Below are positions 8,412 through 28,400 of a stretch of 64,000 nucleotides of DNA, piece by piece (position 1 is the stretch's first letter; each line of letters starts with the position of its first letter). Origin of the DNA: Oceanospirillaceae bacterium (lineage in GTDB: Bacteria > Pseudomonadota > Gammaproteobacteria > Pseudomonadales > Oceanobacteraceae); NCBI GenBank assembly GCA_002724925.1, contig PBQA01000029.1:1-64000 (forward strand). The letters are read 5' to 3'. Under the pieces are notes generated by a model. It was not told the origin of the DNA. It saw only the letters and a program-made list of their open reading frames with translations, and did no database searches. Both the position numbers and the translations under genes were made by a program.

Positions 8412-8451
8412 GAATCTCATGGATATGATTTAAAGCGTCAGGAGTTTGACT

Positions 8452-9450
8452 ATGTTCGATGGGAAAAGCATTCTGGTCACGGGTGGCACTGGGTCATTTG
8501 GCCATGCTTTTGTTCCGATGACGCTTGAGAAGTACAACCCGCGCCGGATCATTGTGTTTTCTCGTGATGAGATGAAGCAGTGGGAGATGGCGAAGCTCTT
8601 CGAGGGTGATCCCAGGGTTCGTTTCTTCATTGGCGATGTACGAGATAAAGACCGTTTGTATCGAGCCTTAGATGGCGTTGATTATGTGGTGCATGCTGCG
8701 GCGACTAAGATCGTTCCGATCGCTGAGTACAACCCGTTCGAGTGCGTAAAAACTAACATCAATGGCGCGATGAATGTGATTGATGCCTGTATCGATCACG
8801 GTATCGAAAGCTGTGTGGCGCTTTCTACGGATAAGGCCAGTTCTCCGGTCAATCTCTATGGTGCGACTAAGCTCGCCTCGGATAAGTTGTTTGTGTCGGG
8901 TAATGCGTATTCGGGCGAGCATGGCACCAACTTCTCGGTCGTGCGCTACGGCAATGTGATGGGCTCGCGCGGGTCTGTGATTCCGTTCTTTCAGTCGATT
9001 AAGGAGTCGGGTGTGTTACCGATTACTGATGATCGAATGACACGCTTTATGATCTCACTAGAGGATGCCGTGAAACTGGTCTGGCATGCTTTTGAAGACA
9101 TGGTCGGCGGTGAAATCTACGTGAAGAAAATTCCGTCGATGAAGGTAACGGATCTTGCGCGTGTTGTGGCCCCGGAAGCCGAACAGAAGGTCGTAGGTAT
9201 CCGCCCGGGCGAAAAGCTGCATGAGCAGATGATTGGCAGTGAGGATTCGTTCCACACTTACGAGTACGACGAACATTTTAAAATTCTGCCGAGTATCAAC
9301 GGTTGGGACCATTGCCCTGAGCGTATAAAAGACGGCAAGCTGGTACCCGAAGGCTTTACCTATTCAAGTGATAATAACTCAGAGTGGATGACCGATGCTG
9401 AGCTTCAGCATTGGATTGAGCATAACCGGGATAGAATCGGGAAGATTTAA
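8452..9450 (+). CDS. pseB: UDP-GlcNAc 4,6-dehydratase (5-inverting)
   Basis: PseB makes the 4-keto-6-deoxy-L-arabino sugar from UDP-GlcNAc, the first step to pseudaminic acid. The 332-aa short-chain dehydrogenase has the NAD(P) motif GGTGSFG near its start and the Asp-Lys/Tyr catalytic set in STDKASSPVNLYGATK (about D127, K128, Y136, K140). The ATG at 8452 is preferred over the TTG at 8446 because AGGAG lies 7 nt before it and the family starts MF(D/N)GKSILVTGG. It is the first gene of the operon. Confidence 0.95.
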   Translation: MFDGKSILVTGGTGSFGHAFVPMTLEKYNPRRIIVFSRDEMKQWEMAKLFEGDPRVRFFIGDVRDKDRLYRALDGVDYVVHAAATKIVPIAEYNPFECVKTNINGAMNVIDACIDHGIESCVALSTDKASSPVNLYGATKLASDKLFVSGNAYSGEHGTNFSVVRYGNVMGSRGSVIPFFQSIKESGVLPITDDRMTRFMISLEDAVKLVWHAFEDMVGGEIYVKKIPSMKVTDLARVVAPEAEQKVVGIRPGEKLHEQMIGSEDSFHTYEYDEHFKILPSINGWDHCPERIKDGKLVPEGFTYSSDNNSEWMTDAELQHWIEHNRDRIGKI

Positions 9451-9452
9451 CT

Positions 9453-10610
9453 ATGATCCCATACGGGCGCCAGAACATTACGAGCGAGGATATCAAAGCG
9501 GTCACTGAAGCACTTCAGTCTGACTTCCTGACTCAGGGGCCGGCTGTCCCTGCCTTTGAATCCGCGGTTTGTGATGCCGTTGGTGCGGCGTTTGGTGTAG
9601 CTGTTAACAGTGCTACCTCTGCACTTCATATCGCTTGTCTGGCCTTAGGAGTAGGCAGGGGACGTCGAGTCTGGACCAGCCCGGTAACCTTTGTTGCTTC
9701 TGCTAATTGTGCTCTTTACTGCGGTGCTGACGTTGATTTTGTCGACATCGATAGCCAGACCTACAACCTCAGTATCGAGGCTCTGACCGAAAAGCTCGTT
9801 GAGGCTGAGCAGGCGGGTACTTTACCTGATGTGCTGATCCCCGTTCATTTAGCTGGCCAGTCGTGCGACATGAAGGCCATCGCTGACCTCGCAGAACGTT
9901 TTAATTTCAAAGTCATTGAAGATGCTTCTCATGCGATAGGGGCAGATTATGCCGGTTTGCCGGTAGGGAATTGCCGTTACTCTGATATTACTGTCTTCAG
10001 CTTTCATCCAGTAAAGATTATTACGACGGGTGAGGGCGGTATGACAGTGACTCAGGATGAGGAGCTGGCGAATACTATGGCGCGGTTGCGCTCGCACGGC
10101 ATTACCCGTGATCCAGCTTTGATGACTCAAGAGCCCGATGGTGATTGGTATTACCAGCAGCAGGAGCTTGGTTTTAACTATCGCATGACGGACCTTCAGG
10201 CGGCCTTGGGCGTTAGTCAGATGCAGCGCCTGAGTCAGTTTATTGAGCAACGACGCGCACTGGCTGAACGATATTTTTCGCTATTGAGTAGCCTGCCGGT
10301 GACGTTGCCGTACCAGGCCGAGTGGTCAGTATCGGCCTGGCATTTGTACATATTGAGAATTAAACCTGATCTGATTAAGAAATCGCAGAAGCAGGTATTT
10401 AAGGAACTCCGTGAGGCGGGCATTGGCGTTAATCTGCATTATATTCCGGTGCATTTGCAGCCGTATTACGCTGCTCGTGGCTTTGCGATGGGGGACTTCC
10501 CTGCGGCCGAGAAATATTACACAGAAGCGATCAGTATCCCGTTATTTCACGGAATGACAGAAGAACAGCAGAACACGGTAGCTAACGTTTTGGAGGACGT
10601 TCTGATATGA
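9453..10610 (+). CDS. pseC: UDP-4-amino-4,6-dideoxy-N-acetyl-beta-L-altrosamine transaminase
   Basis: PseC is a PLP enzyme of the DegT/DnrJ/EryC1 family that aminates C4 of the PseB product using glutamate. The 385-aa protein carries the Schiff-base lysine in FHPVKIITTGEGG (about K188) and the PLP-phosphate region NSATSALH. It begins 2 nt after pseB, and its last bases overlap pseF by four. Confidence 0.94.
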   Translation: MIPYGRQNITSEDIKAVTEALQSDFLTQGPAVPAFESAVCDAVGAAFGVAVNSATSALHIACLALGVGRGRRVWTSPVTFVASANCALYCGADVDFVDIDSQTYNLSIEALTEKLVEAEQAGTLPDVLIPVHLAGQSCDMKAIADLAERFNFKVIEDASHAIGADYAGLPVGNCRYSDITVFSFHPVKIITTGEGGMTVTQDEELANTMARLRSHGITRDPALMTQEPDGDWYYQQQELGFNYRMTDLQAALGVSQMQRLSQFIEQRRALAERYFSLLSSLPVTLPYQAEWSVSAWHLYILRIKPDLIKKSQKQVFKELREAGIGVNLHYIPVHLQPYYAARGFAMGDFPAAEKYYTEAISIPLFHGMTEEQQNTVANVLEDVLI

Positions 10611-11296
10611 GTCGGATCGCTGTGATACCCGCTCGCGGTGGCAGTAAGCGGATTCCACGAAAGAACATTAAGCATTTTGCGGGTAAACCGATGATCGCCT
10701 GGTCGATTGATGCAGCGATTCAATGTGGATTGTTCGACCGTATTATTGTCTCTACCGATGACGATGAAATTGCTGAAATAGCCCGCACACTCGGAGCTGA
10801 AGTTCCGTTTATGCGCCCGGCGTATCTGTCGGATGATCATACGGCCACGATTCCGGTCATTGCGCATGCAATCGATACTCTTATTGACGAAGGCGAGGCC
10901 CCTGTTGATGTTTGTTGTATCTACGCAACCGCCCCCTTTATTTCAGCAGACGATTTAGAGGCTTCTTATAAGCAGTTTAAGCGCACAGACAGCATGTATT
11001 GTTTTACCGCAACAGAGTTTGCGGCGCCGATCTTCCGCTCCTTTCAGGTAGAAGATGATCATTCTGTCGAGATGTTCTGGCCAGAAAACTTTGAAAAGCG
11101 CAGCCAGGATCTACCGGTGGCGTATCACGATGCAGGACAATTCTACTGGGGCCACGCCAAAGCCTGGATGGATGGCGATCTTATTTTTGCTCCGCATTCT
11201 CAGGCGTTCGTCATTCCTCGATGGCGGGTTCAGGATATTGATACTCCAGATGATTGGGCGAGAGCAGAACTGATGGCTCCGGCAATTCTGGGGTAA
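10607..11296 (+). CDS. pseF: pseudaminic acid cytidylyltransferase
   Basis: PseF activates pseudaminic acid with CTP to give CMP-Pse, the donor for the glycosyltransferase. The 229-aa NeuA-like enzyme has the nucleotide-binding loop IPARGGSKRIPRKN at residues 7-20 and the family region YATAPFISADDL. It starts in an ATGA overlap with pseC. Placement of the activating enzyme before the synthase is common in pse loci. Confidence 0.93.
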   Translation: MSRIAVIPARGGSKRIPRKNIKHFAGKPMIAWSIDAAIQCGLFDRIIVSTDDDEIAEIARTLGAEVPFMRPAYLSDDHTATIPVIAHAIDTLIDEGEAPVDVCCIYATAPFISADDLEASYKQFKRTDSMYCFTATEFAAPIFRSFQVEDDHSVEMFWPENFEKRSQDLPVAYHDAGQFYWGHAKAWMDGDLIFAPHSQAFVIPRWRVQDIDTPDDWARAELMAPAILG

Positions 11297-11299
11297 CGC

Positions 11300-12838
11300 A
11301 TGAAAATTGCGTTTCGTTGCGATGCATCAGAGAGAGTAGGTACAGGGCATGTAATGCGCTGCCTGACTCTGGCACGTGCAGCCATGACGCAGGGGCATGA
11401 GGTTTGCTTTTTTGTTTCTGATATCGATGCTGCTCTTGAGAAGCGAATCAATGCGACTGGTATCCGGATTATCAGGCTTCCTTCGCTGGAATATGGCTGT
11501 CAGCAATCATCGGTAGCAATTGAAGCTGAATACGAAACAAGTCAGCAGGAGACTGAGGCCCGGTACTTTTTAAGTACAGTGGCGGGCTATCAGCTTGACT
11601 GGATCGTCGTCGATCATTACGGCTACGGTGAGCCATGGATCTCGGCAATTAAACGCGCGGGCTATTGTTTGCTTTTAATCGAAGACTGGCCGCACCGGAA
11701 AGTCAGTGCTGACTTACTTCTTGACCCAAGACCAGGCGCCGTTGCTTCAGATTATCAAGAGTATATTCGTTCTGAAAAGGTACTCTCTGGCTCTGGTTTT
11801 AATCTTATCCGTGAGGAGTTTTTTGCTGAACCTTGCAGTTCTTCCAGAAGAGTTCAGCGGGTTTTACTTAATCTGGGCGGATACGACCATCGTGGTCTAA
11901 GTGCTGATATTCTCGATGCATTGGCCAGCGAAGACTTCGTCAATAAGCTAAGTTTTACCGTGCTTTTGAGTCAGTCATCTCCTGCATTTTCTCGTATTCA
12001 GTCTCGTAGTCAGAGCAGCGAATATCCATTTTCGGTGAACTTAATTGATCACTGCGACGATATGGCAGGCCTGTATCGCTCTCACGATGTTTGTATTGGT
12101 GCATCTGGAGGTTCTCTGTGGGAACGGGTCGCTATGAGATTGCCTACTGCATTGGTGATTGTTGCTGATAATCAGAAACCCCAGGCCAGTTATGCTGAAG
12201 ATAATGGCCTGGTAAAAGTCGTAGCAGACTACTCTGGCACAGCTGGCAGTTTTGATACCTCCGCGTTCAGAAGTCTTGTTGAATCTGATGAGGTGCGTCA
12301 GAGTATGCAGGATAGCTCAGCCAACCTCATTGAGAAGAGTGGCAGTCGGTGTGTTATCCAGGCCGTTGAAAACACAAAGCCGGAAGGCATGACTCTGCGC
12401 TCCGCGATAGTGAGTGACATGCGGGATTTCTATCGTTGGCAGAAGCAACCCGGAGCCCGTCGTTTTTTCCGTACGCCACAACTGCCGCGCTGGTCGCAAC
12501 ACAGACGTTGGTATCAAGGTGTTATGTCTGACGCTTCGGTTAGCCTGTATATCGTTCTATTTAACGGAGAGAAGGCGGGCTACGTGCGAGTGGATGGCGC
12601 TGTAACTAGTTCTAAAAGTAGTTCTGTAGGTAGCTCTTTAGGTAGCTCAGAAGTATCTATCCTTATCAGCCGGAACTTTCGCGGGCGGAAGCTTGCTGTT
12701 AACGCATTGAAAGCGCTTGTAAGTCGTTATCCCGAAACACGTTTTTGCGCCGATGTTGCTCCCGGTAATTTTGCCTCGCGGAAAGTATTCAAACGAGCGG
12801 GCTTTCAGAAAACAGGAGGACGTCGCTATGAGTACTGA
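11300..12838 (+). CDS. pseG: PseG UDP-sugar hydrolase fused to GNAT acetyltransferase (PseG-PseH)
   Basis: This 512-aa protein has two domains. Residues 1 to about 350 are PseG, a GT-B-like hydrolase that removes UDP from the diacetamido sugar, with the GTGH motif placing the expected catalytic histidine at H17. From about 357 a GNAT domain follows (RSAIVSDMRDFYRWQK, then NFRGRKLAVNALKAL and NFASRKVFKRAGF), probably supplying PseH, the C4 N-acetyltransferase, which has no other clear gene here. A Ser-rich insert (about 436-451) in the GNAT part is encoded by four 12-bp repeats. The 3' end overlaps the next gene by 11 nt. Confidence 0.88.
   Translation: MKIAFRCDASERVGTGHVMRCLTLARAAMTQGHEVCFFVSDIDAALEKRINATGIRIIRLPSLEYGCQQSSVAIEAEYETSQQETEARYFLSTVAGYQLDWIVVDHYGYGEPWISAIKRAGYCLLLIEDWPHRKVSADLLLDPRPGAVASDYQEYIRSEKVLSGSGFNLIREEFFAEPCSSSRRVQRVLLNLGGYDHRGLSADILDALASEDFVNKLSFTVLLSQSSPAFSRIQSRSQSSEYPFSVNLIDHCDDMAGLYRSHDVCIGASGGSLWERVAMRLPTALVIVADNQKPQASYAEDNGLVKVVADYSGTAGSFDTSAFRSLVESDEVRQSMQDSSANLIEKSGSRCVIQAVENTKPEGMTLRSAIVSDMRDFYRWQKQPGARRFFRTPQLPRWSQHRRWYQGVMSDASVSLYIVLFNGEKAGYVRVDGAVTSSKSSSVGSSLGSSEVSILISRNFRGRKLAVNALKALVSRYPETRFCADVAPGNFASRKVFKRAGFQKTGGRRYEY
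12607..12654 (+). repeat. in-frame 12-bp minisatellite, four copies
   Basis: Four consecutive 12-mers (TAGTTCTAAAAG, TAGTTCTGTAGG, TAGCTCTTTAGG, TAGCTCAGAAGT) encode a Ser/Gly-rich loop inside the GNAT domain. The period equals four codons, so gain or loss of a unit keeps the frame. Confidence 0.75.
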
Positions 12839-13562
12839 TATTGCGTCTGCATATATTATTGCGAGCAATAAAGAGTGGCATCGAACCTCGTTTGAAACTT
12901 TGAAGGAAGAGTACGAAGGCGATTGGTACTGGGTATCGACGCCTGATGAATTGCTCGAAGCTGTCAGGGAGATCGAGTCTCCGCGTTATATATTTTTCTT
13001 GCACTGGAGTCATCATGTGCCCGAAAGCGTATGGGCGCAGCATGAGTGCGTGTGCTTCCATATGACGGACCTGCCCTACGGGCGAGGTGGCAGCCCATTG
13101 CAGAATTTGATTCTTCGCGGTCATCAGGAAACGGTGCTTACTGCGTTCCGAATGGTCGAGGCTATGGATGCCGGGCCTGTTTATGCGAAACGGGGCTTAT
13201 CCCTGAGTGGCACGGCAGAACAGATCTACAGAAGAGTGGGGGAGTTATCGACGGATATCATTCGCTCAATGATTGTTGAGCAACCTGAACCTGAAGATCA
13301 GACGGGTGAAGTCGTTGTGTTTAAGCGTCGTACACCGGAGGAGAGTGAAATTCCGAACGGTGCTTCCCCTGAGATACTTTATGATTTCATACGTATGCTG
13401 GATGCCGATGGTTACCCTCATGCGTTCAGTCGTTCTGGCCAGTACATTCTGCGCTACACGGATGCCGAATTACATGAGGGCGAACTGAAAGCGAGCGTTG
13501 TTATTTCTTTAACAGGTTCAGAAAGATCAACATCCGAAGTAAAACAGAGAGAGAAGCCATGA
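12828..13562 (+). CDS. formyltransferase-like protein of the pse operon
   Basis: This 244-aa protein is related to the formyl_trans_N family (Fmt, GART, sugar N-formyltransferases). The core block FHMTDLPYGRGGSPLQN at residues 77-93 aligns with the NxHxSLLP block, and EAMDAGPVY supplies the conserved aspartate (D114). His78 is kept, but the usual catalytic asparagine appears as Cys76. The ATG at 12828 is chosen for AGGAGG 8 nt upstream; an earlier in-frame start at 12753 lacks one. Position before pseI suggests N-formylation of a nonulosonic acid or precursor. This is inferred and activity is unproven given the changed residue. Confidence 0.7.
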   Translation: MSTDIASAYIIASNKEWHRTSFETLKEEYEGDWYWVSTPDELLEAVREIESPRYIFFLHWSHHVPESVWAQHECVCFHMTDLPYGRGGSPLQNLILRGHQETVLTAFRMVEAMDAGPVYAKRGLSLSGTAEQIYRRVGELSTDIIRSMIVEQPEPEDQTGEVVVFKRRTPEESEIPNGASPEILYDFIRMLDADGYPHAFSRSGQYILRYTDAELHEGELKASVVISLTGSERSTSEVKQREKP

Positions 13563-14605
13563 CGTTTTCTATTTCAGGCCGAAAGATAGGCGCCTCTTTC
13601 AAGCCGTATATTATTGCTGAGGTGTCTGCTAATCATAACGGCGATCTCGCAAAAGCGTTGCAGACCATTGATGCGGCCGCTGATGCAGGGGCCAGCGCAG
13701 TCAAAATTCAGACTTATACTGCAGACACCATGACCATCGACTGCGATTTACCTGATTTTCAGATTCATGGTGGTTTGTGGGATGGCTACAAGCTTTACGA
13801 CCTCTATAAGTGGGCCGAAACGCCTTATGAATGGCATAAGGCCATGTTCGATCATGCAAAGGCGCGAGGTATTACTTTGTTTTCTACGCCGTTCGATGAG
13901 TCGGCTGTAGAGCTTCTGGAATCGCTAAATACGCCTGCATACAAAGTCGCGTCGTTTGAGCTGACTGATATCCCATTAATTCGCTGTATTGCAGCCACCG
14001 GTAAACCTTTGATCATGTCGACGGGAATGGCGAGCCTGGAAGAAGTGAAAGAGGCGGTAGATGCCGCGCGCGCTTCTGGTTGCAAGGATCTGGTGTTGCT
14101 GCACTGCATCAGTAGCTATCCAGCGCCGATGGAGCAGGCGAATATCCGCCAGATGGCCACCCTTGAGAAAGAGTTTGGCGTTACCGTTGGGTTGTCTGAT
14201 CATACGTTAGGAACCGTCGCTTCCGTGGCTGCTGTTTCCTTAGGCGCGAGTGTGATCGAGAAACACTTTACCCTGAGCCGGGAAGACAAAGGTCCGGACA
14301 GTGAGTTCTCTATTGAGCCGCACGAGTTGAAGCAGTTAGTCGAGGACGCAAATAACGCCTGGGCTGCATTGGGTAGTGAGGCTTATACCCGACAAAAAGC
14401 TGAAGAGCCGAACCGCCGATTCCGCCGGTCTTTGTACTTTGTTAAAGATCTGCCCGCGGGCCATATTGTCAGAGAGAATGATATCCGTCGTATTCGTCCC
14501 GGTTTCGGTCTGGCGCCTAAATATTACGATGATGTCATCGGCCGTGCGCTAAGTGATTCAGTAAGCCGGGGTACACCCGTGCAATGGGAGGCGTTTGATG
14601 AGTGA
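13559..14605 (+). CDS. pseI: pseudaminic acid synthase
   Basis: PseI (NeuB family) condenses the freed 2,4-diacetamido-2,4,6-trideoxy-L-altrose with phosphoenolpyruvate to give pseudaminic acid. The 348-aa protein has the N-terminal TIM barrel with AEVSANHNGD, KIQTYTADT and FSTPFDESAVELLE, the GLSDHTLG block, and the C-terminal SAF antifreeze-like domain (RRSLYFVKDLPAGHIV onward). It starts in an ATGA overlap with the formyltransferase-like gene and overlaps the deacetylase gene by 8 nt. Confidence 0.95.
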   Translation: MTFSISGRKIGASFKPYIIAEVSANHNGDLAKALQTIDAAADAGASAVKIQTYTADTMTIDCDLPDFQIHGGLWDGYKLYDLYKWAETPYEWHKAMFDHAKARGITLFSTPFDESAVELLESLNTPAYKVASFELTDIPLIRCIAATGKPLIMSTGMASLEEVKEAVDAARASGCKDLVLLHCISSYPAPMEQANIRQMATLEKEFGVTVGLSDHTLGTVASVAAVSLGASVIEKHFTLSREDKGPDSEFSIEPHELKQLVEDANNAWAALGSEAYTRQKAEEPNRRFRRSLYFVKDLPAGHIVRENDIRRIRPGFGLAPKYYDDVIGRALSDSVSRGTPVQWEAFDE

Positions 14606-15269
14606 GATTGTGTTGGTTGTTGCTGCCCATCCCGATGATGAAGTTCTTGGGTGTGGTGGCACTATAGCCAGGCATACTGCCGCAGGTGATCAGGTTCATG
14701 TTTTGTTTATGGCAGATGGCGAAGCCTCTCGTGAAGAGGCTGATATTACGCAACGCCGTTTGGCCGCAAACAATTGCGCCGATGCGCTCGGAATATCAGA
14801 ACGGATCTTTTTAGACTGGCCTGATAATAAATTGGATTCTGTGCCATTACTGGATGTCGTACAGAGCCTTGAGCCACATATCCGTCGCTTAAACCCTTCA
14901 ATTGTTTATACCCACTTTTGGGGTGATTTGAATATTGATCATCGCGTGACTGCTCAGGCGGTCATGACAGCATGTCGTCCCCAGCCGGACTCTTTGCCTG
15001 CCTTAAAACGTATTCTTTCATTTGAGGTTCTTTCCAGTACCGAATGGTCAATGAATGAAACGTTTGTGCCGAATTATTGGATAGATATAACTGCCACCAT
15101 TGAGGAAAAAATGTCGGCACTCGCACCGTACGACTCAGAGATGCGTGAGTACCCCCATACCCGCTCATATCAGAATATACGTCAGTTAGCCGGCCTTCGG
15201 GGCGCATCTGTTGGTGTGGAATATGCGGAAGCCTTTATGTTGTTGCGGGCGGTAGAGAAGTCAGTATGA
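14598..15269 (+). CDS. PIG-L/LmbE family N-deacetylase
   Basis: The 223-aa protein has the zinc motif AHPDDE near residues 12-17, LGCGGT after it, and the second metal histidine block DLNIDHRVT. Family members remove N-acetyl groups from GlcNAc-containing substrates. The ATG at 14598 is chosen for GGGAGG 6 nt upstream. In this operon it could expose an amine on pseudaminic acid or a precursor for the formyltransferase-like or GNAT proteins. The family call is strong and the substrate is inferred. Confidence 0.8.
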   Translation: MSEIVLVVAAHPDDEVLGCGGTIARHTAAGDQVHVLFMADGEASREEADITQRRLAANNCADALGISERIFLDWPDNKLDSVPLLDVVQSLEPHIRRLNPSIVYTHFWGDLNIDHRVTAQAVMTACRPQPDSLPALKRILSFEVLSSTEWSMNETFVPNYWIDITATIEEKMSALAPYDSEMREYPHTRSYQNIRQLAGLRGASVGVEYAEAFMLLRAVEKSV

Positions 15270-16261
15270 CGACGCCATTGTCTGTCCTTATTGTTGGATG
15301 TGGACGAATCGCAGGCGGGTTCGATGAAAAGCGCTCGACGGAAGAGCACGCGCTGTCGCATGCCGGTGCTTACAGTAAGCGATCCGATGTCGTACTCGCT
15401 GCTTGCGTCGATCCTGATATTGAGATTGCGGAGAGATTTGCAGAACGTTGGTCAGTCAGTGAAGCGTACCCGGGGTGCGAAGAAATACCAGCTGAATGTG
15501 AATTTGATATTGTCAGTATCTGTACTCCAACCGCCGTGCACAGTAGCTCAATTGAGGATGTATTTCGCTTCAGACCGAAAGTAATATTTCTTGAGAAACC
15601 TGTATCGGCTTCTGCAGATACGAGTCAGGCGTTACTGGATAAATGCAGGCAGCATAATATCGCCTTGATTGTTAATTACAGTCGCCGTTGGGATTCAGTG
15701 CTGGCTGAGCTTAAAAATGGTCTGGAAACCAAGAGTGCAGAATGGCCGGGTTCGCTTAAAGCGGTCACCGCGGTGTACAACAAGGGCATACGCAATAACG
15801 GCTCTCACCTTCTGGACTTGTTGGCGGGTGTGGTCGGCGTGCTGAGCCCAGAGTGGGCTGCGGTTCGCCCAGGCAACGCACGTAAGGATGATCCTGATAT
15901 CGATATGGTCCTGATGTCTGATCGTGGAATACGCTGTTCTCTAAATAGTACGGACTCGGATGATTTCGCTCAGTTTGAGCTGACGTTTCTGACTGATAAA
16001 GGCGAATTCCGTATGCTTGATGGTGGGCTTCGCTGGAGCGAACGGAGGGTTGAAGAAAGCCCGGAGTTTGCCGGCTATAAGCGTTTGGGTAAAGAAATCG
16101 CATGTTCCGGTGGATATCTTCCAGTGATGGAAAAAGCCATATCTGAAGTGATAGATCTCGCACTGCTCAGTCAGTCTGGCCCTATTGATTATCGGGCTGC
16201 GGAGCAGGCGGTAGAAACGGAACGTTTGATAGAACAGATTCTGGAACGAGTAGATGACTAA
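15266..16261 (+). CDS. Gfo/Idh/MocA family oxidoreductase
   Basis: This 331-aa NAD(P)-dependent dehydrogenase has the Rossmann motif VGCGRIAGG at the N terminus, CTPTAVHS, and the family signature EKPVS (about residues 110-114). In sugar pathways such enzymes oxidise a hydroxyl to a ketone, often just before a PLP aminotransferase, and the next gene is exactly that. It starts in an ATGA overlap with the deacetylase gene and overlaps the aminotransferase gene by 8 nt. Substrate unknown. Confidence 0.82.
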   Translation: MTTPLSVLIVGCGRIAGGFDEKRSTEEHALSHAGAYSKRSDVVLAACVDPDIEIAERFAERWSVSEAYPGCEEIPAECEFDIVSICTPTAVHSSSIEDVFRFRPKVIFLEKPVSASADTSQALLDKCRQHNIALIVNYSRRWDSVLAELKNGLETKSAEWPGSLKAVTAVYNKGIRNNGSHLLDLLAGVVGVLSPEWAAVRPGNARKDDPDIDMVLMSDRGIRCSLNSTDSDDFAQFELTFLTDKGEFRMLDGGLRWSERRVEESPEFAGYKRLGKEIACSGGYLPVMEKAISEVIDLALLSQSGPIDYRAAEQAVETERLIEQILERVDD

Positions 16262-17564
16262 TACAAACGAATTACTGGATGCCATGCGTTCAGAAACCCT
16301 TGCTCTTGAGGGTGGCGCGCCTGTTATTACGCATGAGTTTCCGCGTTATAACAGCCTTGGCAAAGAAGAGCAGGATGCTGTGCAGAAGGTTATGGAAAGT
16401 GGTGTTCTGTCTCAGTTTCTGGGTTGCTGGCACGACGATTTTTATGGCGGCAGCAAGGTACAGGCGTTCGAGGCACAGTGCGCTGACTACTTTGGTGTTA
16501 AGCACGCTATCACGGTCAACTCCTGGACCTCAGGTCTGATCGCTGCGGTGGGTGCTCTTGATATCGAACCGGGTGATGAAATTATCGTAACGCCATGGAC
16601 TATGTGTGCCAGTGCGACGGCCATCCTACATTGGAATGCCATCCCGGTATTTGCAGATATCGATCCGCAAACATTTAACCTTGATCCAGAATCGGTGCGG
16701 AGAAATATTTCAGAAAAAACCCGGGCTATCATGGCCGTCGATATTTTTGGGCAGTCGGCCGATATGGAGGCGCTTCGAGCCATTGCTGATGAGTTTAATC
16801 TGAAAATTATCTCCGATACCGCGCAGGCACCCGCCGCGAAGTACAAAGGAAAATGGGCGGGCACCCTGGGGGATATTGGTGGTTATAGTCTGAATTACCA
16901 CAAACATATTCATACCGGTGAGGGGGGTGTCGTTGTTACCAACGATGATGCACTCGCGGAGCGTGTCCGCTTGATACGCAATCATGCAGAAGCCGTGTTG
17001 CCTGACCGGGAGGCTATGCCGATCAATAACATGCTTGGTTATAACTTCCGCTTGGGAGAAATTGAGTGCGCGATTGGCATGGAGCAGTTGAAGAAGCTAA
17101 ATGGGCTGGTTGAGTCCCGTCGCGCTCTGGCCGAACGATTGGCGGCGGGTATTTGTGAGCTGCCGGGGCTGTCAGTGCCGTATGTTGCCGATGGGAATAC
17201 CCACGTGTACTACGTATTTCCACTTCTGGTCGACCCGGATGTCGCGGGTGTCAGTAAGTTTGAAATTGCTGAAGCGCTGAAAGCCGAGGGTGTGATTCTT
17301 GCGACGCAGTATCAGAACCTGCATCTTTTGCCTATGTATCAGCAGAAAACAGCTTACGGTACGAGTGGATTTCCCTGGAGTGCTGAGTTCACCAGGCAGG
17401 ATATTTCCTACGAGAAGGGAATATGTCCGGTCGCAGAGGATATGAATGACCGTACGTATCTGGGTTTCGGAATGTGTACTTATGATCTGACCGAATCGGA
17501 TGTCGATCTGATTATCCGTGCTTTCCATAAGGTGTGGGCACACAAGGTCGAGATGAGTCGGTAA
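16254..17564 (+). CDS. DegT/DnrJ/EryC1/StrS sugar aminotransferase
   Basis: This 436-aa PLP enzyme has NSWTSGLIAA for cofactor binding and the Schiff-base lysine in YHKHIHTGEGG (about K217). It is distinct from PseC and about 50 residues longer, with an N-terminal extension including ALEGGAPVI. Paired with the oxidoreductase upstream and the GNAT downstream, it could install an extra amino group on a sugar or on the nonulosonic acid. That pathway is inferred from gene order. The family assignment itself is firm. Confidence 0.85.
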   Translation: MTNTNELLDAMRSETLALEGGAPVITHEFPRYNSLGKEEQDAVQKVMESGVLSQFLGCWHDDFYGGSKVQAFEAQCADYFGVKHAITVNSWTSGLIAAVGALDIEPGDEIIVTPWTMCASATAILHWNAIPVFADIDPQTFNLDPESVRRNISEKTRAIMAVDIFGQSADMEALRAIADEFNLKIISDTAQAPAAKYKGKWAGTLGDIGGYSLNYHKHIHTGEGGVVVTNDDALAERVRLIRNHAEAVLPDREAMPINNMLGYNFRLGEIECAIGMEQLKKLNGLVESRRALAERLAAGICELPGLSVPYVADGNTHVYYVFPLLVDPDVAGVSKFEIAEALKAEGVILATQYQNLHLLPMYQQKTAYGTSGFPWSAEFTRQDISYEKGICPVAEDMNDRTYLGFGMCTYDLTESDVDLIIRAFHKVWAHKVEMSR

Positions 17565-17573
17565 GGCGTAACC

Positions 17574-18110
17574 ATGTTCAGTAATGACTTCAAATCCATA
17601 CTGCCGATTGAAAAGGATGACTTGAAAGTTTGTCTTTTTACTCTGGATGATATTTCAGAGCGATATATTGGTTGGTTGAACAATAAGGAACTGGTCAGGT
17701 TCAGTAATCAGAGATTTATGAATCATGATGAAGCCAGTTGTCGTGAGTTCTTTGATTCCGTAAGCCGGAGTAACTCGGTATTTCTTGCTGTGAAGCATAA
17801 AATTCACGGCCATATCGGCACGATGACGGTTCATTTCAATCAACGTCATGGCACGGCTGATATGGGAATCCTGATCGGTGAAACATCGGCTCCCGGTGCT
17901 GGTTCTACAGCCTGGTTAATGGTGATGGATAAGGTGCTTTCGTTGCCTGGTTTGCGTAAGGTGACTGCAGGCACCCTAGGCTGTAACAAGGCCATGCTGG
18001 GGGTTATTCGTAAGAGTGATATGGTCCCGGATGGTATTCGTGTACAGCATGAATTAGTTGAAGGCGTTGCTTTCGATATGTTGCATTTCGCCAGATTCTC
18101 CTATGACTGA
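17574..18110 (+). CDS. GNAT family N-acetyltransferase
   Basis: This 178-aa protein has a RimJ/RimL-like GNAT fold: FTLDDISERYIGWLNN at the start, a central strand pair around GHIGTMTVHFN, and GILIGE near the acetyl-CoA site. It is the second GNAT in the operon, after the one fused to PseG. It might be the true PseH or might acylate the amine made by the oxidoreductase/aminotransferase pair. Sequence alone does not decide. Confidence 0.7.
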   Translation: MFSNDFKSILPIEKDDLKVCLFTLDDISERYIGWLNNKELVRFSNQRFMNHDEASCREFFDSVSRSNSVFLAVKHKIHGHIGTMTVHFNQRHGTADMGILIGETSAPGAGSTAWLMVMDKVLSLPGLRKVTAGTLGCNKAMLGVIRKSDMVPDGIRVQHELVEGVAFDMLHFARFSYD

Positions 18111-19008
18111 TTTTCCTGCGGGGCGTTGTGGCATTGTCGCTCACGATGCGGGTGCGGCGAATCAGATCCTGCATTGGATTACGGCAGGCGATTTTTCTGA
18201 TATTGATATCATTCTATCTCTGCATGGCCCCGCTAAAAAAATAGCAGATCGTCTTGGGCTGCTGAATCAATTCGAAAACATCGACGATACAGAGGCGCTG
18301 GCTCAGAGGGTGGACTGGATTATCTCGGGCACAGGCTGGGCAACTGAAATCGAAAAGAATGTGATGTATCTCGCCCGACAGCGTGCAATTCCTGTATTCG
18401 CTGTGCTGGATCACTGGGTGAATTATCGTCCGAGACTGAACTATCAGGCGGATGGCCAGGCAGATATTGATGAGCTTTGGGTGGTTGATAATGAGGCTCA
18501 GGCTGTGGCAGCTTCAGAGTTTCCTGGTGCTTGTATACGAATCATGCCGGGTAGGTACCTGGAGGATCAGGTCGCGGAGATCAGTTCAGTAACAGAGTCT
18601 GGCACGGTTCTGTTTTTGATGGAGCCTGTGCGGGAGCAATGGGGTGATATGCAATCCGGTTCACTAAATCCCGGCGAGTTTTCAGCCTTCGAGTTTTTTC
18701 TCTCCGCTCTTAAAAAGACCGGTGCTAATGTCGGCAACATTGTGATTCGCCCTCATCCTTCTGACCCTCCCGGTAAGTACGACGCTCTTACTGAGTGTGT
18801 AGAGTTCAGAGTTTCTGTAAACACGGAAGATTCATTGTCACATGCGATCTCAGAGGCGACGTATGTTGTCGGATTAAACAGTTACGCGATGGTGGTGGCG
18901 TTAGCCGCAGGACGAAAAGTCTACTGTGCTTTGCCACCGATTGCGCCTGCATGTGTGTTACCACACACAGGTATTATTGATCTTCGAAACGAATCATTCG
19001 GCGTATAG
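18103..19008 (+). CDS. unassigned GT-B-like protein ending the pse operon
   Basis: This 301-aa protein is taken from the ATG at 18103, which overlaps the GNAT stop; an in-frame start at 18058 would overlap more. It has an N-terminal Rossmann-like start (GIVAHDAGAANQIL), and a C-terminal half with VIRPHPSD and VGLNSYAMVVALAAGRKVY. This HP plus Ser/Asn layout is reminiscent of capsule and sialic-acid-type glycosyltransferases. No family was recognised with certainty. Its last 15 bp overlap the convergent maf gene. Confidence 0.5.
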   Translation: MTDFPAGRCGIVAHDAGAANQILHWITAGDFSDIDIILSLHGPAKKIADRLGLLNQFENIDDTEALAQRVDWIISGTGWATEIEKNVMYLARQRAIPVFAVLDHWVNYRPRLNYQADGQADIDELWVVDNEAQAVAASEFPGACIRIMPGRYLEDQVAEISSVTESGTVLFLMEPVREQWGDMQSGSLNPGEFSAFEFFLSALKKTGANVGNIVIRPHPSDPPGKYDALTECVEFRVSVNTEDSLSHAISEATYVVGLNSYAMVVALAAGRKVYCALPPIAPACVLPHTGIIDLRNESFGV

Positions 19009-21045
19009 ATGCTCGTTAGAAACGATATCGTTGCGAACCCATGGGTCTGCAGTATCCGGGTATTGCTTAGACGTAATACTGTCGTAATGAGACGGTAGAT
19101 CTTCAAGAAATTTCCCAAAGTTACTCTTCCATTCAGTAATAAATTTATCCCGGCTGGCTTTATTTTCTATCGAAAGTGAGTGAGCACACCCGATATTCAG
19201 GTAATGCCATATTGAACCGCGTATGAAGTATGCGGTCAGGCCATACTTAGGGAAGACCTGTTGCAGTAGATTCAGGTTGATCGTGTGGCACACACGAAAT
19301 ACGTCTTCAGGTTCGGTCGATTTCAGAGAATTTAAGCACACACTGAATGAGCGGCTGATTTCTTTCAGGAAAGCACCGAGCTCGTCGATTTTCTCGCGCA
19401 TCTGCTTCTGTGTGAAGGGTGTACCTTTGAGTGCCTTCAGAAATTCGGTTGAAGCGATGTCTTCACGTGTAGCGAAGAAGTCATCTACGGCATCCGGTGT
19501 AAGATATTCAGTGTTGGCGATCTTTGCGCCTTCTGAACATGCGTAGCTTTGTGTTTGCTGGTGCAGTGTGCGGTGCTTTGTCAGTTGTTCAATACTCATC
19601 CTTGAGGTGTTGTACATTGGAAAAGTGTACATAGGGTCGCCATGAACTGATTCGGTTTCGACCAATTTCTCCAGATTACGTTTAACCCCTTCTTTGATGG
19701 AGTCACTCATTTTATCGCTGAAGTAGATGCTGTTCTTCGAGTGATGCTGATTCTTCTCCGGGAAGCCGAAGTCCATGCCGTACAGGAAGACGCTTTTAAG
19801 TTGAAGGTGAGTTGCTACGGCCACGCCGGTGTTGGTGCAGGTTGGCGTCGCTCTGTGTACGATTTCTTCCTGGCTGCCGAACATATTTCCCAGCGCCGTT
19901 GAGTCTTTCAGAAAGTAGTAACCGTGTCTGAATAAGCTAAATACCTGGGGAGGCAGCTGTAGGGCGCCAACCAGCAACGTATTTTCAAAGAATTCTGGAT
20001 GCTCGATTTTTGAAAGATGATCGTACGTCAACATGTGCGATTCAATTTCAACGTGTATATCGGGCATGAGTCCGGCAGCAATAATGCTGTGTACCGATGT
20101 TCCGCACGAGATCAGTAACATCTTATTGCGATGGCGCTTAATTTCTTCAACCCGCATATCAAAGGATGGTCCACCGCCGACGATAACCGCTGGTAGAGTG
20201 GTATCTATCTGGTCGTAAGACATAGGTGGCACGCCTGCGCCAATATTATGCAGAGCATTGTTAAGCTGATTTATTTCATCGTCATAGTAGCCCCACTGAT
20301 TCAGGAAGAAGTGCATATCCCCCTGTATACGTTTGACTATGGGGTTATAGGGCGCACTGCTTATGTGATTATAAAAGAGAGCGCACAGCGGGAAGCTCGG
20401 GCCGTAGTTGATCAGTAGGTTCCAGAGTGCGGGAGAAGACACCTCCGGTGGAGCGACTCCGCCGTTGGCGACGAGTATGTCGATCTTATTGCCTTTCCTT
20501 TCAAACTCGCGGAATAGATCTTCCCAGTCAGTGACATAGAGGCTGGCGAAGAAGTACTCAGGATCTGGCTCGAAAATGATGACGTTAAGAATTCGGTTTT
20601 CCCGGATCATTCTTTCGATATGGATACCCAGGCCACAGCCAAAGAATACGATCATGGGATAGAAATCGGGAATGGTGTAATTCTGGGTCAGGTCTGCATC
20701 GTCCGGGATCTGATCCGTCAGAGCGTGCATACGTTTAGAGAAGAAACGATGAAAGCCAATCTCCCCCGGACTGGGTGGCAGTATGGTGGCTATTGATTGT
20801 CCGGGGCCGAAGTTGTCTTTGTATGCGTCAACTTCTCTATCTGCAAAGGCATGCGCATCACCTTGATACAAACTTTGTTTGTCGTGCCAAAGATCGACGC
20901 TACCTGTATCGCCATCAATATTCAGCGTCAGTCTACTGAAGCTTTCCTGCAACGCAGTTTGATACAGAGCAGGGTGCTTCTTCTTAAAGTACGCCAGATT
21001 TTTGTCTTTCAGCGCCATAGCACCGGCGGCTCGTGGGTGTGTCAT
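18994..21045 (-). CDS. Maf-type flagellin nonulosonic acid glycosyltransferase (DUF115)
   Basis: This 683-aa motility-associated factor probably attaches the CMP-activated nonulosonic acid to serine or threonine of flagellin in the cytoplasm. The central MptE-like DUF115 domain is visible from ALHNIGAGVPPM through VIVGGGPSFD, ISCGTSVHSI, PDIHVEIE and YGMDFGFPEKNQHH. The start at 21045 is chosen for AAGGAG 7 nt upstream; a longer frame to 21144 has no such site. It is read convergently to the pse operon and divergently from fliC, so it has its own promoter. Confidence 0.9.
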   Translation of the reverse strand: MTHPRAAGAMALKDKNLAYFKKKHPALYQTALQESFSRLTLNIDGDTGSVDLWHDKQSLYQGDAHAFADREVDAYKDNFGPGQSIATILPPSPGEIGFHRFFSKRMHALTDQIPDDADLTQNYTIPDFYPMIVFFGCGLGIHIERMIRENRILNVIIFEPDPEYFFASLYVTDWEDLFREFERKGNKIDILVANGGVAPPEVSSPALWNLLINYGPSFPLCALFYNHISSAPYNPIVKRIQGDMHFFLNQWGYYDDEINQLNNALHNIGAGVPPMSYDQIDTTLPAVIVGGGPSFDMRVEEIKRHRNKMLLISCGTSVHSIIAAGLMPDIHVEIESHMLTYDHLSKIEHPEFFENTLLVGALQLPPQVFSLFRHGYYFLKDSTALGNMFGSQEEIVHRATPTCTNTGVAVATHLQLKSVFLYGMDFGFPEKNQHHSKNSIYFSDKMSDSIKEGVKRNLEKLVETESVHGDPMYTFPMYNTSRMSIEQLTKHRTLHQQTQSYACSEGAKIANTEYLTPDAVDDFFATREDIASTEFLKALKGTPFTQKQMREKIDELGAFLKEISRSFSVCLNSLKSTEPEDVFRVCHTINLNLLQQVFPKYGLTAYFIRGSIWHYLNIGCAHSLSIENKASRDKFITEWKSNFGKFLEDLPSHYDSITSKQYPDTADPWVRNDIVSNEHLYAE

Positions 21046-21147
21046 GCCATTTCTCCTTATTGAACAGAGAAAGTAGCAGAGATCATGCCACCTGAAGGGG
21101 GGAGCAGACTTGCAGGAAGAGCACAGAAAAACATTTCGTAACAAACT

Positions 21148-25468: not shown

Positions 25469-25497
25469 ATGTCCGCAATGTGCGGCAAGAGGATTGT

Positions 25498-28400
25498 ATG
25501 GCATCGATAGAATCGTTAGGTTTGGGCTCAGGTGTACTGACCACCGACCTCGTCGAGCAGATCATTGGCGCTGAGAGAGAAGTCAGTGAACTTCGTCTTG
25601 ACCGTCGCCAGGAGCTGATCGAAGCCAAGATTACGGCCTATGGTGAAATCAAAGGCCTGATGTCTACCATGCAGTCTTCGGTCAACAATCTCGCGTCGCC
25701 CAGTGCGGCAGGTGCGACCCTCGCCACTTCCAGCAACGAAGATATTCTGACGGTTACCACGTCGACCACGGCCGATCCGGGTAATTACAGTGTTGAAGTT
25801 CTTAACACGGCAAAGTCTCACTCGTTGGCAACGGGTACATTCAACAGTTTTGATGAAATCGTTGGAACAGGTGAGCTGACGTTCAGCTTCGGCACTAACA
25901 ACTACGATGAGGTGACTGGCGATGTCACGGGCCAGGACGTCAACACGGATCGTCCAACCCGTACTATTACCATTGATGAATCAAACCGTACTCTGAGTGG
26001 TATTCGTGATGCGATTAATAACGCCGATATGGGCGTAAGAGCATCCATTATCAACGACGGTGTGGGTTTTCGTCTTCTGATGACGAGCGACGACACGGGC
26101 TCCAGCAACGCCATGCGGATTGAAGCGCGTGATGATAGTGGCAACCTGCTGACCAATGGTCTGGCGTCGATGGCGTTTAATGAACTTCAGGCTGGTCCTG
26201 ATAATCTCGAGCAGACCAGTCGCGGTGAGAATGCGCAGCTCAGCGTGAATGGCCTGACGATCACTCGCGAAAGTAACAATGTCGATGAGGTCATTAAAGG
26301 CGTTACGATTAATCTGAAAAGTGCAGATGTAGGAACTCAGGTCAGTATTGGTGTGTCTCCCGATACTGATAAATTGAGTGAGAATATTCAGGGTTTTGTT
26401 GATGCCTACAACAACCTGAAACAATTTGTAGATGATCTTTCCTCGTTTGATACTGATAGTCAGCAGGCAGGCCTGCTGCTGGGTGACTCAACCATCCGCA
26501 CCATGCAGAGCCAGATTCGCTCGCTGATCTCTCAGCCGATTGCAGGCCTGAGTGGTGAATACCGCTCGCTCACCGAGTTGGGCGTGAATACCGACCGGAA
26601 CAACGATTATCTGCTCGAGTACGACCCATCGGTGTTCCGCAAAGCGATTAATGAAGAACGCTCATCTATTGTTGGTATTCTGGCGAAATCAGGTATCACC
26701 AGTGATAGCCAGATTACCTATGTCAACGACTCTATTAATACGAAGTCAGGCACGTATGGCGTAGAAATCACGCAATTGGCGACGCAGGCAAAATATACAT
26801 CGGCGTCTCTCGGACTGCTGGATTTTGCGTCTCCTGTGACTGTCGACAGCAGTAACGACAGTTTCACTATTAATGTGAATGGCAAAGATGCAACCGTAAA
26901 TCTGACGCATGGTGATTACACCTCAGGTGATGATCTGGCCGCAGAGCTGGCGTTGCAGATCAACAGTAACGATACCCTGGTTCAGTTCGGCCACTCGGTA
27001 TCGGTGGATTTCAACACTAGCAGCAATAACTTCTCGATCACGTCGAATAAGTATGGAGCTGATTCTCAGGTTTACATCAAGTCAGTAAGCGGAAACACGG
27101 CTAATACACTGGGCTTCAGTGCATTGGGTAGCGGTACCTACGAAGGTGGTGAGCTGACGACTCTGAACGCAGCTGCGTTTGCAGGGCGTGGTGCCACTAC
27201 TGATGCTGGAAGTCGCTTTATTAATCCCGAAACCGGTATTAATTTTCAGGCGAATAACGCGACTTTCAGTCTTGATGTGGACGGTTCTGGCCCGGTCGCT
27301 GTCACTGTCGACCAAAATGCTCAGGGACAGGATCTTAACGGCGACGGCGTGTTTGGTGATCGCAATGATACCTTGCAGGCGATTCAGACGGCGATTGATT
27401 CGACCGCTCTTAATGGTCAGGTACTGGCCACCTTCGATGATAATGGTTATCTGAAATTTGAAACGACGTCGGTCGGTGCAGCCAGCTCAATCGAGATTAC
27501 TTCTGTTGGTGCATCTGTAACGGATACGCAGCTCGGTCTGGACGCGACGCAGGGCGCCCAGACCAACGGCAAAGACCCTGGTGTTGATTTTCCGGCTGCG
27601 GTTAATTTTAAGGTACAGGTGGATGGCATCGATTCGGATGGTTTCGTGTCCATCCCCGCAGGCACTTACCTTACGGGTGATGACCTGGCGACTGAAATAC
27701 AGAATCAGTTAAGTGCGACTTTAAGTGCAGATCCTAATTTCGCGGGCGTAGTGCGTGGTGGCGAGACAGCGACCGGTTCACGTGATATCAGTGCCAATAT
27801 CGACTTCACCACAACGAACGCCGGGTTCCGTCTGAATGTGTCGGGTGTTGAGCAGGATATTCTTGTTAATACTGATTCTGGCGACAACGTTGCTGACGTC
27901 CAGGCAGCGTTGGATGCTGCGTATGGTGCAGGCGTAGTGACTGCATCCCTGGACGGTACCGGGCTGAAACTCAGCACGGTGGCGACCGGACACGAAGAAT
28001 TTATTGAAGTTGTCAGTGATGGGCGTGGCGCTCAGACATCAGCTTTTGGTGATATTTCTACTGGCTTTGATTTCTCGGCACCAGGTCAGAATGCCAGCTT
28101 TACGCTTACCGTCGGTGGAACTGCCATTAATGTGGATGTTACAGGTGACGGCACATCTGGTAGCAACGATAGCCAGTCGAATCTGGTCGCTATCCAGAGT
28201 GCGCTGGATGAAGCCTTGATCGCTACAGGTGAATACCAGGCAGCTGATGTTACGGCTGCGGTGGATGGTTCTGGTCAGCTGTACTTTGAGACGAATTCGA
28301 AAGAGGGCGTAAAAACGTCAGCCACGTTCGGCTCTGCGGCAAGCATTGAGGTCAGCAACCTCGGTGGTACAGCGGCGACGTCACTGGGACTATCTGCCGA

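Follow-up and report, generated by a model that had tools for sequence, protein, structure and literature searches.

Fmt-B and PIG-L, a conserved gene pair of pseudaminic acid clusters, as a candidate acetyl-to-formyl editing step

Pseudaminic acid (Pse) has two amines: N7 is the C4 amine, which PseC introduces and PseH acylates, while N5 is the N-acetyl group brought by UDP-N-acetylglucosamine (UDP-GlcNAc). The PseJ protein formylates the C4 amine directly to give a 7-formamido Pse; it replaces PseH and is not known to need a deacetylase. Characterised sugar enzymes of the PIG-L type have the 2-N-acetyl group of GlcNAc as their substrate, and the known BshB1, MshB and PIG-L enzymes feed thiol or glycosylphosphatidylinositol synthesis. 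Here we describe a locus in 64,000 nucleotides of DNA from an Oceanospirillaceae bacterium (assembly GCA_002724925.1, contig PBQA01000029.1, positions 1 to 64,000; "the window" means this whole stretch) in which a formyltransferase-fold protein, Fmt-B, and a PIG-L/LmbE deacetylase, called PIG-L below, are encoded on either side of pseI. The reading that we favour, with some reserve, is that the two proteins make up an acyl-editing step in the Pse pathway that exchanges the N5 acetyl group for formyl.

PseJ (PDB 6ci2, 6ci4, 6ci5 and 6edk) resembles Fmt-B in being a formyltransferase, named for the Pse pathway; Fmt-B differs from it in belonging to another family, in being accompanied by PIG-L and in being usually additional to the enzyme in the PseH role. 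A protein of Clostridium thermocellum entitled 'methionyl-tRNA formyltransferase' (1zgh) is of the same family as Fmt-B and has the same HMTDLPxGRGGSPLQNLI stretch. The BshB1, MshB and PIG-L GlcNAc de-N-acetylases share their superfamily and metal-site residues with the PIG-L of the window, which scores below every one of their curated cut-offs.

A nonulosonic acid formylated at N5 has a precedent in Halorubrum sp. PV6, where 5-N-formyl-legionaminic acid is reported and the cluster holds a candidate formyltransferase (PMC6137143). That case is like the Pse proposed here in the position of the formyl group and unlike it in concerning legionaminic acid in an archaeal N-glycan, and the word 'deacetylase' is absent from the paper. 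Formyltransferases in flagellin glycan islands have already been described from genomes of Geobacillus (PMC5109656) and Enterobacteriaceae (PMC4875605), islands that differ from ours in that the available text has no deacetylase, PIG-L or LmbE term. The pse islands of Aeromonas include a 'deacetylase' and the available text has no formyl term (PMC7874193), which shows that pse islands can carry a deacetylase with no formyltransferase reported. In our literature search, over the titles and beginnings of abstracts that were listed, no paper connected a PIG-L gene and a formyltransferase with a nonulosonic acid, a result that does not prove absence. The available part of the Shewanella flagellin paper has no formyl term; a 274 Da sugar on the flagellin of Shewanella oneidensis is described there as a putative nonulosonic acid, its mass being equal to that calculated for the Pse residue minus one acetyl (PMC3765264).

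Fmt-B and PIG-L in the window

The cluster in the window encodes PseB, PseC, PseF, PseG and PseI proteins that exceed their NCBIfam cut-offs, and PseG carries a GNAT domain that, from its nature and place, would fill the PseH role. The genes are:

8446..9450, + strand: pseB, UDP-GlcNAc 4,6-dehydratase (inverting); TIGR03589, 539 bits, cut-off 408
9453..10610, + strand: pseC, C4 aminotransferase; TIGR03588, 565 bits, cut-off 424
10607..11296, + strand: pseF, CMP-pseudaminic acid synthetase; TIGR03584, 329 bits, cut-off 206
11300..12838, + strand: pseG-pseH fusion (UDP-sugar hydrolase and GNAT domain); TIGR03590, 212 bits over residues 1-296, cut-off 154; Acetyltransf_3 over 365-503
12828..13562, + strand: Fmt-B, 244 aa with a formyltransferase fold, candidate for N-formylating the freed amine; PF21553, 1zgh match, AlphaFold model
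13559..14605, + strand: pseI, pseudaminic acid synthase; TIGR03586, 505 bits, cut-off 340
14598..15269, + strand: PIG-L/LmbE deacetylase, 223 aa, candidate for exposing the amine; PF02585, 107.7 bits

An earlier note on this DNA had placed overlapping formyltransferase-like, pseI and LmbE-type genes at 12828-15269, and these coordinates are exact: Fmt-B overlaps pseI by 4 nt and pseI overlaps PIG-L by 8 nt, with further overlaps of 11 nt between pseG-pseH and Fmt-B and of 4 nt between PIG-L and the next gene. The start of Fmt-B was taken as the ATG at 12828, which has an AGGAGG-type site just 5' of it; the open frame itself runs from 12753. The closest named locus is that of Thalassolituus maritimus DSM 24913, with an Fmt-B that is 97% identical, and the 3.97 Mb genome that carries the window belongs to Thalassolituus or very near it.

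Fmt-B clearly has a formyltransferase fold. The sole Pfam cut-off that it passes is that of PF21553 (Formyl_trans_C_2; 59.1 bits, cut-off 27), Formyl_trans_N (PF00551) reaching 21.3 bits, under its cut-off of 26.1. Its sequence matches 1zgh in the Protein Data Bank (PDB; E 7.9e-54, residues 9-226), and an AlphaFold model made with 62 sequences has a mean pLDDT of 91.6 and a TM-score of 0.87 to 1zgh; Foldseek matches of the model are 1zgh, ArnA, WbkC, VioF and HypX. No PseJ entry is among the 30 PDB matches of Fmt-B at E values up to 1. A methionyl-tRNA formyltransferase it is not: TIGR00460 gives 36.2 bits against a cut-off of 201.5, and because the genome of the window has a separate open reading frame (ORF) with a canonical Fmt stretch, a tRNA role for the 1zgh/Fmt-B family as a whole seems doubtful.

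Fmt and ArnA are known for an Asn-His-Asp triad. In the alignment of 62 Fmt-B sequences, H78 and D114 are invariant, and the position usually held by Asn, which was read from the sequence stretch (two residues before His) and not from structural superposition, is Cys in 44 (Cys76 in the window), Val in eight, Asn, Gly and Ile in three each and Met in one. Asp81 is present in 60 of the 62, where the canonical formyltransferase stretches compared have Leu. In the stretches that were read, Val or Gly takes the place of Asn in the formyltransferases of about 300 aa found beside other PIG-L genes and in those of a further family that we call Fmt-A. A missing Asn is thus common among cluster-borne formyltransferases, and its loss may be compensated in them.

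PIG-L belongs to its superfamily by a wide margin (PF02585, cut-off 28.2 bits), its best NCBIfam model being BshB1 at 96.6 bits, below the cut-off of 182.5. Residues H11, D13, D14, E15, D114 and H115 are each kept in 81 of 82 aligned proteins, and the protein of the pse operon is predicted to be a deacetylase of an N-acetyl sugar. Purifying selection appears to act on both genes, with dN/dS values against two relatives of 0.10 and 0.15 for Fmt-B and of 0.08 and 0.12 for PIG-L.

Pairing of Fmt-B and PIG-L across genomes

We called Fmt-B, Fmt-A, PIG-L and GNAT with family profiles and thresholds of our own in two sets of loci (numbered with L). One was found with Fmt-B alone in named genome records and consists of the best 80 of 127 stretches encoding a relative; by their record titles these come from Pseudomonadota, Verrucomicrobia, Acidobacteria, cyanobacteria, planctomycetes, Bacteroidetes, Anaerolineales, Lachnospiraceae and candidate phyla. 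The other was chosen with the PseI model, which 51 of 299 genomes of the phylum passed; with that of the window excluded, 50 loci were fetched, some of them cut by contig ends. GNAT and Fmt-A were counted within 8 kb in the 80-locus sample and anywhere in the fetched stretch in the 50-locus sample.

PIG-L lies within 8 kb of Fmt-B in 75 of the 80 loci. Among the five others, L032 and L077 are on contigs of less than 4 kb and L075 and L088 end at most 76 bases from Fmt-B; L048 is a true exception, and the same contig carries another Fmt-B (L087) that does have a PIG-L. In the PseI sample, Fmt-B is present in six of the 50 loci, PIG-L is present in six, and the six are identical (L123, L124, L125, L129, L134 and L154; five families), a coincidence with a one-sided exact p of 6e-8 if the loci are independent, kinship between them being left out of account. 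A strict scan for the HPDD-type motif picked up ORFs in three of the six and nowhere else in the sample, where the profile found all six. These counts exclude a chance pairing and support a deacetylate-then-formylate unit; neighbourhood alone is no proof of any chemical step. We have very little doubt that the pairing is genuine and conserved and reflects a functional link; the reading in the earlier note that the two genes act together is supported.

A plasmid of Synechococcus sp. NIES-970 carries GNAT, Fmt-B, LmbE and NeuB-type genes consecutively, its Fmt-B being 48% identical to that of the window. It is one of 47 plasmid records that Fmt-B matched; the other 39 of the 40 listed are at most 31% identical and mostly ArnA by name. 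A search of phages gave one distant match.

When the PIG-L of the window was the query, 47 of 299 genomes matched and 30 loci were fetched, 29 besides that of the window. Fmt-B is adjacent or one gene (pseI) away in six of the 29, and in seven more PIG-L directly adjoins a formyltransferase of another family (L179, L182, L183, L184, L185, L187 and L190). Longer stretches of L183 and L187 (L204 and L207) hold NeuB-type synthases over the cut-off, together with a LegC-family aminotransferase in L204, while that of L179 (L202) is a Pse-type cluster by its PseB, with a PIG-L that adjoins a formyltransferase other than Fmt-B. On a Halorussus plasmid neuC and neuB flank PIG-L, and two formyltransferase genes lie next to this group (L214, 10001-10945 and 11069-11791); Halorussus is a haloarchaeon, as is the organism reported to make 5-N-formyl-legionaminic acid (PMC6137143). 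Ten loci (L191-L200) have a shorter PIG-L, with about 200 aa matched, and nine of them have a DegT-type aminotransferase ORF nearby; L195 has a PseG-like ORF. Their arrangement differs from those above.

The amine that is edited

A new acyl group at N7 requires only another acyltransferase, and one at N5 requires a prior deacetylase, so N5 fits the gene content. The proposal in the earlier note that the sugar is edited rather than acylated directly has the same merit, in that it accounts for the need of a deacetylase. In the 50 PseI loci GNAT occurs in 30 and Fmt-A in five, never together, and 15 have neither. Of the five with Fmt-A, three (L126, L128 and L156) lack PIG-L, and L123 and L124 have it together with Fmt-B. 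This mutual exclusion and the occurrence of Fmt-A without PIG-L indicate that Fmt-A behaves as a substitute for PseH, a role that it probably fills to judge from its exclusivity with GNAT in 35 loci. The three PIG-L-free loci are Pse clusters in which neither GNAT nor PIG-L was found, and are candidates for the direct synthesis of Pse5Ac7Fo; the Fmt-A protein of L126 has no match to PseJ in the PDB at E values up to 0.01.

In the 80 Fmt-B loci, Fmt-A is present in 14, of which 13 have PIG-L and eight of those 13 have no GNAT within 8 kb. L036 and L062 have an extra formyltransferase; among its best matches in the PDB are PseJ, VioF and further N-formyltransferases of sugars. A second formyltransferase is thus found in 15 of the 75 Fmt-B/PIG-L loci, or in nine of 75 on a strict count that admits only loci with no GNAT found within 8 kb. 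GNAT is within that distance in L036 and in five of the 13, standing away from pseG in L012, L052, L056 and L072 and fused to PseG in L085; in L052 it follows PIG-L, a place where other loci carry GNAT too. Editing at N7 would be redundant where a second formyltransferase accompanies Fmt-B and PIG-L.

Fmt-B was also considered as a replacement for PseH and rejected, a GNAT, Fmt-A or PseJ/VioF-like gene being present within 8 kb in 69 of the 80 loci. The 11 loci with no recognised gene for the PseH role comprise six that are short or cut (L037, L050, L053, L059, L070 and L075) and five that are long (L025, L066, L083, L086 and L087). Because the PseH role usually has an enzyme of its own, on a separate gene, the Fmt-B/PIG-L edit is more likely to be at N5 than at N7 and, given that a swap occurs at all, we consider N5 quite likely.

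We propose that PIG-L would hydrolyse the 2-acetamido group inherited from UDP-GlcNAc, hexose carbon 2 becoming N5 of Pse, and that Fmt-B would formylate the freed amine, most likely with N10-formyl-tetrahydrofolate as donor. Acylation of the C4 amine would be independent of this: the GNAT domain fused to PseG would add acetyl in the window, and formyl would be added in clusters that have Fmt-A or a PseJ/VioF-like enzyme. The edit would probably take place between PseC/PseH and PseI, and the predicted flagellin sugar is Pse5Fo7Ac, 14 Da below Pse5Ac7Ac. The chemistry of deacetylation and re-acylation is known; what would be new is its place within nonulosonic acid synthesis.

An acetyl-to-formyl swap, suggested by the earlier note, is the best reading of the pair and is likely, with formyl as the predicted group; the part of that suggestion that fares badly is that the exchanged acetyl is the one placed by PseH, which PIG-L would strip from the C4 amine for Fmt-B to formylate, giving Pse5Ac7Fo. 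Swapping the acyltransferase would not get round the acetyl that arrives with UDP-GlcNAc, at N5. Exchange of the PseH acetyl is less likely: the PseH role seems to be taken by Fmt-A without PIG-L in three of 50 loci, a PseJ formyltransferase is named in the PDB, 15 of 75 loci keep both Fmt-B and PIG-L although another formyltransferase is there, and to acetylate, deacetylate and formylate one amine would be wasteful. Fusions occur among the Fmt-B loci: PseG-GNAT is recurrent, PseG-Fmt-A occurs in L034, L046 and L049, GNAT-Fmt-A in L004 and Fmt-A-Fmt-B in L032, and the GNAT-Fmt-B fusions of L024 and L077 favour N7 in that the two steps may be close together. We regard editing at N7 as unlikely. 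It is somewhat less probable again that PIG-L frees the N5 amine and Fmt-B adds another acyl group or is a scaffold. The NeuB-type PIG-L locus L213 speaks for this in showing no formyltransferase and an ORF that looks GNAT-like by eye, as does the rarity of the catalytic Asn in Fmt-B; set against it are the invariant His78 and Asp114, the fold of formyl-tetrahydrofolate enzymes, the seven of 29 other PIG-L loci that adjoin formyltransferases of other families, and the absence of the same Asn from those stretches of the Fmt-A and roughly 300-aa proteins that were read. Least probable, and in our view very unlikely, is action of the pair on another sugar of the same glycan, such as a product of the Gfo/Idh, DegT and GNAT genes that lie directly downstream and outside the named Pse families: that block is complete in only four of the 80 loci, at least one Pse-type gene accompanies Fmt-B in all but L037 and L073, and Fmt-B in the window sits between pseG-pseH and pseI.

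Several observations weigh against an acetyl-to-formyl edit at N5. The N-formyl Pse in print bears its formyl group at N7, in P. aeruginosa O7 (PMC12795346) and in 1244 pilin (PMC6222762), and none is at N5 in the available parts of these sources, which also favours the N7 alternative; an assay of any member of the Fmt-B family was not found in our literature search. Fmt-B departs from the Asn-His-Asp triad, with Asn kept in three of 62. In 16 of the 29 other PIG-L loci no formyltransferase was found within about 1.5 kb, although for one of them, L180, a longer stretch (L209) shows one 1.4 kb off on the opposite strand. A PIG-L that is 50% identical to that of the window (L178/L201) has no formyltransferase found in 18.8 kb, so PIG-L may serve other acyl groups too. 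The role of Fmt-A is itself inferred, and in the PseI sample its scores are 161-187 in the three PIG-L-free loci against 288 and 310 beside Fmt-B. The best column difference between Fmt-B-positive and negative loci is 0.68 in PseI, 0.57 in PseF, 0.54 in PseC and 0.49 in PseB (73 positive and 44 negative loci for PseI and fewer for the others, short or low-scoring sequences having been dropped), and PseI gives no clear separation of the two groups; Met58 and Thr110 of PseI occur together in 65 of 73 positive and seven of 44 negative loci, groups that differ in taxonomy. Once PseC and PseI are accounted for, the mirror-tree signal between Fmt-B and PIG-L is weak (partial r 0.19, 0/300 shuffles) and nearly equalled by that of Fmt-B with PseI (partial r 0.18, 1/300 shuffles), in 64 of 86 loci after short or low-scoring sequences were dropped.

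Flagellin neighbourhood and wider implications

An operon-like run on the + strand extends from pseB to the gene of a 316-aa protein, and is followed by a Maf gene on the other strand and a flagellin-like ORF on the + strand:

15266-19008: block with a Gfo/Idh oxidoreductase, a second DegT aminotransferase, a second GNAT and a 316-aa protein without a Pfam match
18994..21144, - strand: Maf-type flagellin glycosyltransferase; PF20157 and PF01973
21381..24953, + strand: flagellin, 1190 aa; an ORF named by eye from its flagellin-like ends
25480-29454: FliD-like ORF, 1324 aa, named by eye

The Maf glycosyltransferase is the likely user of the CMP-sugar and the flagellin-like ORF its likely acceptor. 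Usual flagellins and FliD proteins are well below the 1190 and 1324 aa found here, and both ORFs are very long. The Gfo/Idh and second DegT proteins pass no Pse cut-off and the second GNAT has no NCBIfam match; PDB relatives of the DegT protein include perosamine synthases and KdnA (5k8b, E 3.2e-44), and the block may produce a second amino sugar. It is complete also in L010, L011, L012 and L022, and partial in L045.

In its broadest form, for and against which we find the balance even, the proposal is that the Fmt-B/PIG-L pair is a widespread cassette that has probably passed between phyla and turns the N5 acetyl of Pse into formyl (giving Pse5Fo7Ac and Pse5Fo7Fo), with a formyltransferase family that works without the classical Asn, and that the same logic has arisen again in legionaminic-type pathways with another formyltransferase family. 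If the proposal is true, it would supply N5-formyl nonulosonic acids with a route that can be tested; in the reported legionaminic acid case, the available part of the paper mentions a possible formyltransferase but nothing that would expose the amine (PMC6137143). The sugar would then be predictable from the genes, GNAT, Fmt-A or PseJ determining N7 and Fmt-B with PIG-L determining N5. A further suggestion is that some genes annotated as 'methionyl-tRNA formyltransferase', among them those of 1zgh and of the Synechococcus NIES-970 and Halorussus loci, encode sugar enzymes.

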